DNA from: Nitrospiria bacterium
Lineage (GTDB): Bacteria > Nitrospirota > Nitrospiria > Nitrospirales > UBA8639
NCBI GenBank assembly: GCA_030430725.1
Contig: JAUIKP010000014.1
Location: forward strand, 1-17,705
Direction of reading: 5' to 3'
DNA: 17,705 bases
This document shows positions 12,412 through 12,632 of the stretch, piece after piece. The notes under the pieces were generated by a model. That model was not told where the DNA came from and ran no database searches. It worked only from the letters and a program-made list of their open reading frames with translations. Numbering within the stretch: the first letter of the stretch is position 1; the number at the start of each line of letters is the position of its first letter. The translations under genes were made by a program, and so were the position numbers.

Positions 12412-12632
12412 ATGGCAAGTTTTCAAAATCCTCAGGGAAAAATAGCGGAGATATCTGGCCTTATCCGAGGCGGCTGCCATCACTGAATAGGCAGCACGAA
12501 TGATGGCCATGGGTGGGGCCACAGGGAATGCCTAAGAATTTATCAAAGGTGACCTCGTTTTATAACAACACGCCCAAGGTTGCGATTTCCAACGAATGGG
12601 TGGATATCGTGCTGGAAGCGCAGAGGCCCTAA
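12412..12632 (+). pseudogene. atpG: Remnant of ATP synthase gamma subunit gene
   Basis: Gamma (normally ~285–295 residues) is the rotating central shaft, and its gene belongs between atpA and atpD. Here a 221-nt scrap remains. The ATG at 12412 opens MASFQNPQGKIAEI, which resembles a gamma N-terminus of the kind MASLQxxRxKIAxI, then runs to TGA 12484–12486. From 12464, in another frame, the sequence reads SEAAAITE-stop-AARMMAMGGATGNA-stop-EFIK, matching the gamma C-terminal helix pattern SExxAARMxAMxxATxNAxExI. The stops are TAG 12488 and TAA 12533. A third frame from 12549 gives [20 protein letters not shown] and ends VLEAQRP-stop at 12632, matching the conserved gamma end LTLxYNxTRQAAITxELxDIVxGA. 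About 200 internal codons are gone. It cannot encode gamma. The identification comes from family motifs known to me, not a search. Confidence 0.88.

Follow-up and report, generated by a model that had tools for sequence, protein, structure and literature searches.

Decay of the in-operon gamma-subunit gene in a genus of Nitrospirales and its probable displacement by a standalone homologue

The gamma subunit is the shaft that acts on all catalytic sites of F1. In the window, that is, the whole analysed stretch of 17,705 nucleotides (contig C179 of genome G000, a fragmented metagenome bin of 551 contigs, 83% complete), the F1 operon has a wreck where the gene of this subunit, atpG, is expected. 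The locus thus raises two questions: what happened to atpG, and which gamma, if any, serves the enzyme whose remaining genes stand around the wreck.

The interval between atpA and atpD

The atpA stop is at 12400 and the atpD ATG at 12709, leaving 308 nt in between, as the first-pass annotation of this DNA had claimed for the position of atpG. The interval retains the first 36 nt and the last 180 nt or so of the gamma gene, interrupted by stops and frame breaks. Frame translation yields MASFQNPQGKIAEI (from the ATG at 12412), AARMMAMGGATGNA and a third piece of 17 residues, each in a different frame, so the gamma-like N-terminus and the C-terminus split over frames were recovered, together with the frame breaks and all three stops noted earlier; further stops are present as well. 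The 3' remnant aligns with the intact in-place gamma of G018 at 79% identity over 185 positions (E 1.7e-41), and on these alignment statistics the similarity is not due to chance. The 5' remnant was assigned partly from its position, because the alignment alone is weak: on its own it matches the start of the in-place gamma with 78% identity in G018 (E 0.07) and 81% in G011 (E 5e-4). Between the remnants, about 657 nt (219 codons) are absent by alignment, in agreement with the earlier estimate of some 200 lost codons. With its homology to the intact in-place gene and its disabling lesions, the in-place atpG of the window is a true pseudogene. It is of the in-place type, the best match to the standalone type described below having an E-value of 1.4e-4.

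The remainder of the F1 operon was said to be intact, and indeed the atpH, atpA, atpD and atpC frames are open (Table 1). Across the compared genomes AtpD is 95–99% and AtpA mostly 95–99% identical to that of the window; a 131-aa piece in G003 is 92% identical to the window's AtpA. The segment 10337–14615 contains F1 genes only, and inspection of the window ORFs by eye revealed none for the a, b or c subunit of Fo; in this genome Fo may thus be encoded at a distance from F1. The hairpin before atpD, in the window and relatives, is predicted from single-sequence folds in all seven folded genomes, with or without gamma, and may have a role in atpD translation or RNA processing.

Table 1. Features of the F1 operon in the window
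Feature	Coordinates	Strand	Evidence or remark
atpH (F1 delta subunit)	10337..10876	+	ORF call; aligned to relatives
atpA (F1 alpha), intact	10880..12400	+	99% identical to G016; 95–97% to G013, G015, G018, G019
gamma 5' remnant (nt 1–36 of in-place gamma)	12412..12447	+	translation, alignment
gamma 3' remnant (nt 694–873), frameshifted, stops 12484 (TGA), 12488 (TAG), 12533 (TAA)	12452..12634	+	same structure in G016
GC-rich hairpin, predicted, upstream of atpD	12656..12679	+	single-sequence folds
atpD (F1 beta), intact	12709..14166	+	33 nt before start identical in 8 aligned genomes
atpC (F1 epsilon), intact	14166..14615	+	ORF call; aligned to relatives

The comparison with close relatives, suggested along with the first-pass annotation, turned out to be informative. 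The same wreck, of the same structure and 95% identical in DNA, is present in G016 (contig C16); therefore, the window wreck is not an assembly error. Shortened intervals with other breakpoints are seen in four more genomes: the spacing from the atpA stop to atpD is 193 nt in G013 and G003, 189 nt in G008 and 71 nt in G015, compared with 959 nt in G018, whose gamma is intact. In coordinates of the in-place gene, the deletion breakpoints are approximately nt 36|694 in G000 and G016 and 78|841 in G013, G003 and G008, and in G015 just the last 31 nt or so of gamma are left. Out of the 20 genomes of the genus, the in-place gamma is missing in these six (G000, G003, G008, G013, G015, G016), whole in nine (G001, G007, G009, G010, G011, G012, G014, G017, G018) and split in one (G019). 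The interval is unreadable in the other four: in the operon check F-type atpD was absent from G002, G004 and G005 and partial in G006.

The sisters of G000 and G016 are G018 and G009 (support 98/100 in the multi-gene tree and 100/100 in the atpD tree), and both keep an intact in-place gamma. The decay had been proposed to be old and not a single sequencing error. The latter part stands, given G016, whereas the decay is recent enough for both sister genomes to have retained an intact gene. The atpD tree suggests at least three losses of the in-place gamma. However, in the multi-gene tree most of the branching order within the group stays open, and the 78|841 breakpoints are common to G013, G003 and G008; our claim is therefore limited to two or more deletions that differ in structure.

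Two loci of the genus are atypical. In G019 (contig C75, L225 9346–10297) the in-place gamma is split by a near-exact tandem duplication of 79 nt (98.7%), which is either an assembly fault or a fresh lesion; as an intact in-place gamma and a standalone one are both missing from this genome, it counts against the displacement reading given below. In G016, contig C130 (L245 1–2570) carries part of an F operon, its gamma being of the in-place type; this fragment is nearer to a different lineage of the family and is probably contamination.

The standalone gamma gene and its origin

In five of the six loss genomes (G003, G008, G013, G015, G016) there is an intact 290-aa F-type gamma outside the operon, in each case without atpA or atpD as neighbours. 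The native gene is lost from the atpA–atpD interval in all five genomes of the genus where the replacement is kept intact, contig C130 of G016 notwithstanding. The standalone gamma of G013 matches solved ATP synthase gamma chains over the full length (E 8e-64) and scores 335 bits against the PF00231 profile (cut-off 39.9; positions 1–285 of 285), and all five proteins exceed the curated cut-off. The G013 protein is identical to P0025, named for Nitrospira sp. MA-1. The dN/dS values among the five genes are 0.076–0.114, hence the standalone gamma is under purifying selection.

The place of the gene is fixed. It lies about 400–440 nt downstream of an outer-membrane efflux (OMF) gene in all five genomes; the order MFP-RND-OMF is visible in the four with longer contigs, and G008 shows OMF and a part of RND (the Pfam check of the efflux families covered the copies in G016). 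Transposase-family genes are found nearby in G008 and G015. In the same two genomes, the aligned part of the OMF gene contains a single in-frame stop (G015, C468 9359–10987, TAG; G008, C36 2401–3996, TGA). A 76-nt block upstream of the standalone gamma is 84–99% conserved across the five and matches nothing else significantly among the loci analysed. Therefore, it appears to be a promoter region, and the standalone gamma is likely driven by a promoter of its own.

The standalone genes are 82–91% identical to the one in G016 and 61–64% identical to the in-place gammas of the genus. Compared with the in-place gamma of G018, the identity is 70% in the N-terminal part, 76% in the C-terminal part and 49% in the middle. 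In a 74-row tree the standalone gammas fall inside the Nitrospiraceae radiation, apart from the clade (100/99) of the in-place gammas of their family, so that the replacement gene is placed outside the genes native to the host clade. A single clade of standalone and family in-place gammas is rejected by the AU test (delta lnL 199, p 1.4e-5), also after addition of the standalone gene of G020 (229 log-likelihood units, p 1.2e-8); the groups tested were chosen after inspection of the tree. The underlying homologue search scored 8000 candidates, of which 7968 passed and the best 120 were taken, 80 of them entering a quick tree and 26 the careful tree. Out of 26 further extracted gammas, six (L203, L205–L208 and L237, a copy of L185) were omitted from the careful tree, and L223 is also absent from it. 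The gene neighbourhoods of the metagenomic relatives P0001–P0120 were covered where these are identical to analysed genomes.

Both genes may occur together. G020, from another genus of the same family, has an in-place gamma and a standalone gamma (79% identical) adjoining a betaine-type transporter. G011 shows the reverse decay: its in-place gamma is intact, and a decayed standalone-type gamma, in pieces 70–82% identical, lies near the same genes, those of an AI-2E transporter and pgi. In G018 and G009 the orthologous efflux operon is present with no gamma behind it. Since the in-place gene was lost in some lineages, the standalone gene decayed in G011 and both are found in G020, there was likely a period with two redundant gammas, either of which could be lost.

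At the level of the order, 199 of 235 genomes have a match, and seven of the best 30 matches lack adjoining atpA and atpD; as the loci were taken from these 30, lower-ranked standalone gammas may exist. One more loss is seen in G187 of the Nitrospiraceae (100% complete, 5% contamination), where 221 nt separate atpA from atpD. This interval contains about 36 nt of the gamma 3' end, 83% identical to the standalone gene of G020 (E 4e-6), and 62 nt including the flank are 81% identical to the N. lenta locus. The sole gamma match of G187 is a standalone gene grouping with the same standalone clade, and we read this genome as a second, separate case of gamma displacement. G110, also of the Nitrospiraceae and 99% complete, has a gamma remnant of about 100 nt in its F operon (L222 8168–8376; 78% to N. 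lenta, E 1e-19). A search for a standalone F-type gamma was negative there, the sole gamma match being N-type (L255 2892–3764), and this genome does not fit displacement neatly. The bins G112 and G053 have no gamma and are uninformative, because they also have no F-type atpD.

The gamma of the window organism

A search of G000 for gamma and a count of alpha and beta genes, as recommended with the first-pass annotation, gave one F-type pair and one N-type pair with its own gamma (contig C270). From their sequence and neighbours, we take two further members of the ATPase fold to be Rho and a flagellar-type ATPase. A protein search of G000 for the standalone F-type gamma gave no such gene, the N-type gamma being the only one. 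Side by side with the latter, we note a remnant in G009 (L156 1251–1391) with a stop, which matches the gamma end (51 bits) and adjoins the neighbour gene of the G000 N-type gamma; it is probably a leftover of a lost N-type ATPase.

The locus where the standalone gene would be expected is cut. Contig C508 of G000, which also carries pgi, matches the standalone locus of G016 with 92% identity through zwf and with 95% over 353 nt at the start of the MFP gene. The match runs to position 5502 of 5504 bp, so that the contig ends inside the efflux operon, and the G000 copy of the standalone gamma is therefore probably in an assembly gap. A close orthologue of the OMF gene was not found in G000 by protein search (best 36%), and the RND gene was absent by DNA search alone, with 40 of 118 first-look candidates scored. 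The missing stretch seems to start where the standalone gamma is expected, and we infer that the window organism still has this gene. A dispersed repeat of about 120 nt occurs at no fewer than approximately 40 places in G000 (40 of 118 candidates scored), and also near the standalone locus of G016 (L148, about 7664–7870).

Several other explanations were considered. That an intact atpG was collapsed by an assembly or sequencing error would suit so fragmented a bin, but G016 carries the same remnant, G013, G003, G008 and G015 have intervals cut at different breakpoints, and the five other loss genomes carry an F-type gamma elsewhere; the loss of the interval in G016 and four other genomes led us to reject this explanation, which retains very little probability. 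It is scarcely credible that the motor runs without gamma or that the F1 operon is dead: although no F-type gamma is visible in G000, atpA, atpD and atpC are open, AtpD is conserved as described above, and an F-type gamma is present in all five relatives that share the loss.

The N-type gamma might serve both enzymes and so make the F-type one dispensable, given that no other gamma was found in G000 and that G110 likewise has just an N-type one. However, the N-type gamma of G000 and the F-type standalone protein share 29% identity, and five of the six loss genomes have the standalone gene under purifying selection. Moreover, the N-type gamma is not present in every loss genome: in G008 (92% complete) the standalone F-type gene is the sole gamma match of any type. 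Since G008 lost the in-place gamma and has no N-type gamma match, the N-type gamma is less likely to be the remedy, and we regard this explanation as quite unlikely. Finally, the native gene could have been transposed and then evolved rapidly, in line with the fixed place of the standalone copy and the nearby transposase-family genes. Against this, the tree and the AU test set the standalone genes apart from the family's in-place gammas, G020 holds both genes, G011 has an intact in-place and a decayed standalone-type gene, dN/dS is low, and the wreck fits the in-place type far better than the standalone one. Simple transposition is disfavoured by the AU test, with its groups named post hoc, and seems unlikely.

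It is highly probable that a Nitrospiraceae-like second F-type gamma, encoded alone, supplies the shaft to the native alpha3-beta3 head instead of the decayed in-place atpG. In the best reading of the data, the shaft subunit underwent xenologous displacement more than once, and of two redundant genes one was then lost. Under this scenario, the lineage would have acquired the second gamma from a Nitrospiraceae-like donor, and in this genus the acquired gene would have come to sit alone behind the MFP-RND-OMF efflux operon. The in-place atpG would have become dispensable because the lineage held the second gene. The two would have coexisted for a period, with lineages losing either one, and where the standalone gamma remains it would now provide the rotor shaft, presumably assembling with the native F1. 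Of the two possibilities raised by the first-pass annotation, the relocation of gamma holds in that five relatives with the same loss carry a standalone F-type gamma; yet the latter is a foreign replacement and not the native gene moved, and in G000 itself there is a contig break only. The alternative of a second ATP synthase is borne out by the separate N-type ATPase of G000.

Known systems and biological meaning

In xenologous gene displacement the function passes to a foreign homologue and the native gene falls into decay. The course is the same here, but the displaced gene encodes the shaft at the centre of a tightly packed complex, it was replaced singly and off the operon, and this apparently happened more than once in one order. 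In cyanobacteria and chloroplasts the ATP synthase genes are distributed over several loci, as far as is known native and stably split; the subunit gene described here likewise lies apart from its partners, but native remnants persist in the operon. As an F-type gamma of the PF00231 family, the standalone protein is likewise full length with the N- and C-terminal parts kept best, whereas the usual gene is between atpA and atpD and this one is alone behind an RND efflux operon.

N-type ATPases are reportedly the subject of Dibrova et al. 2010. The N-type ATPase is a separate enzyme, and its gamma is probably not the replacement. An operon of the kind described, in the portions of the papers considered, for Nitrospira lineage IV (PMC7784846, PMC10579370, PMC12342949) is present in G000 with its own gamma. 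The considered portion of PMC12342949 equates family UBA8639 with lineage IV, to which the window would then belong, and mentions atpG once, for the N-type operon. That of PMC10579370 credits Nitrospira sp. MA-1 with an N-type ATPase next to a canonical F1Fo enzyme, with no occurrence of atpG or gamma subunit; atpG likewise does not occur in the considered portion of PMC7784846, nor in PMC8115632. Among the matches listed from the open-licence PMC literature (titles and abstract beginnings), there was no report of in-operon gamma loss.

According to the complexity hypothesis, single subunits of tight complexes are hard to swap between species. By contrast, gamma has here apparently been replaced alone, by a homologue about 62% identical and encoded off the operon. 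In annotation, such genomes could wrongly appear to be without a complete F1. Close relatives that have one gamma or the other, together with a genome holding both and another in which the decay is reversed, make up a natural experiment on motor compatibility, on the dosage of an off-operon subunit and on the decay of gene order. The organisms concerned are some nitrite-oxidizing bacteria related to marine Nitrospira. We lean towards the view that a roving standalone gamma lineage spreads among the families of the Nitrospirales, repeatedly displacing the native shaft after a period when two gammas coexisted and either could be lost, and that several nitrite oxidizers may run hybrid F1 motors whose shaft differs in history from the head.
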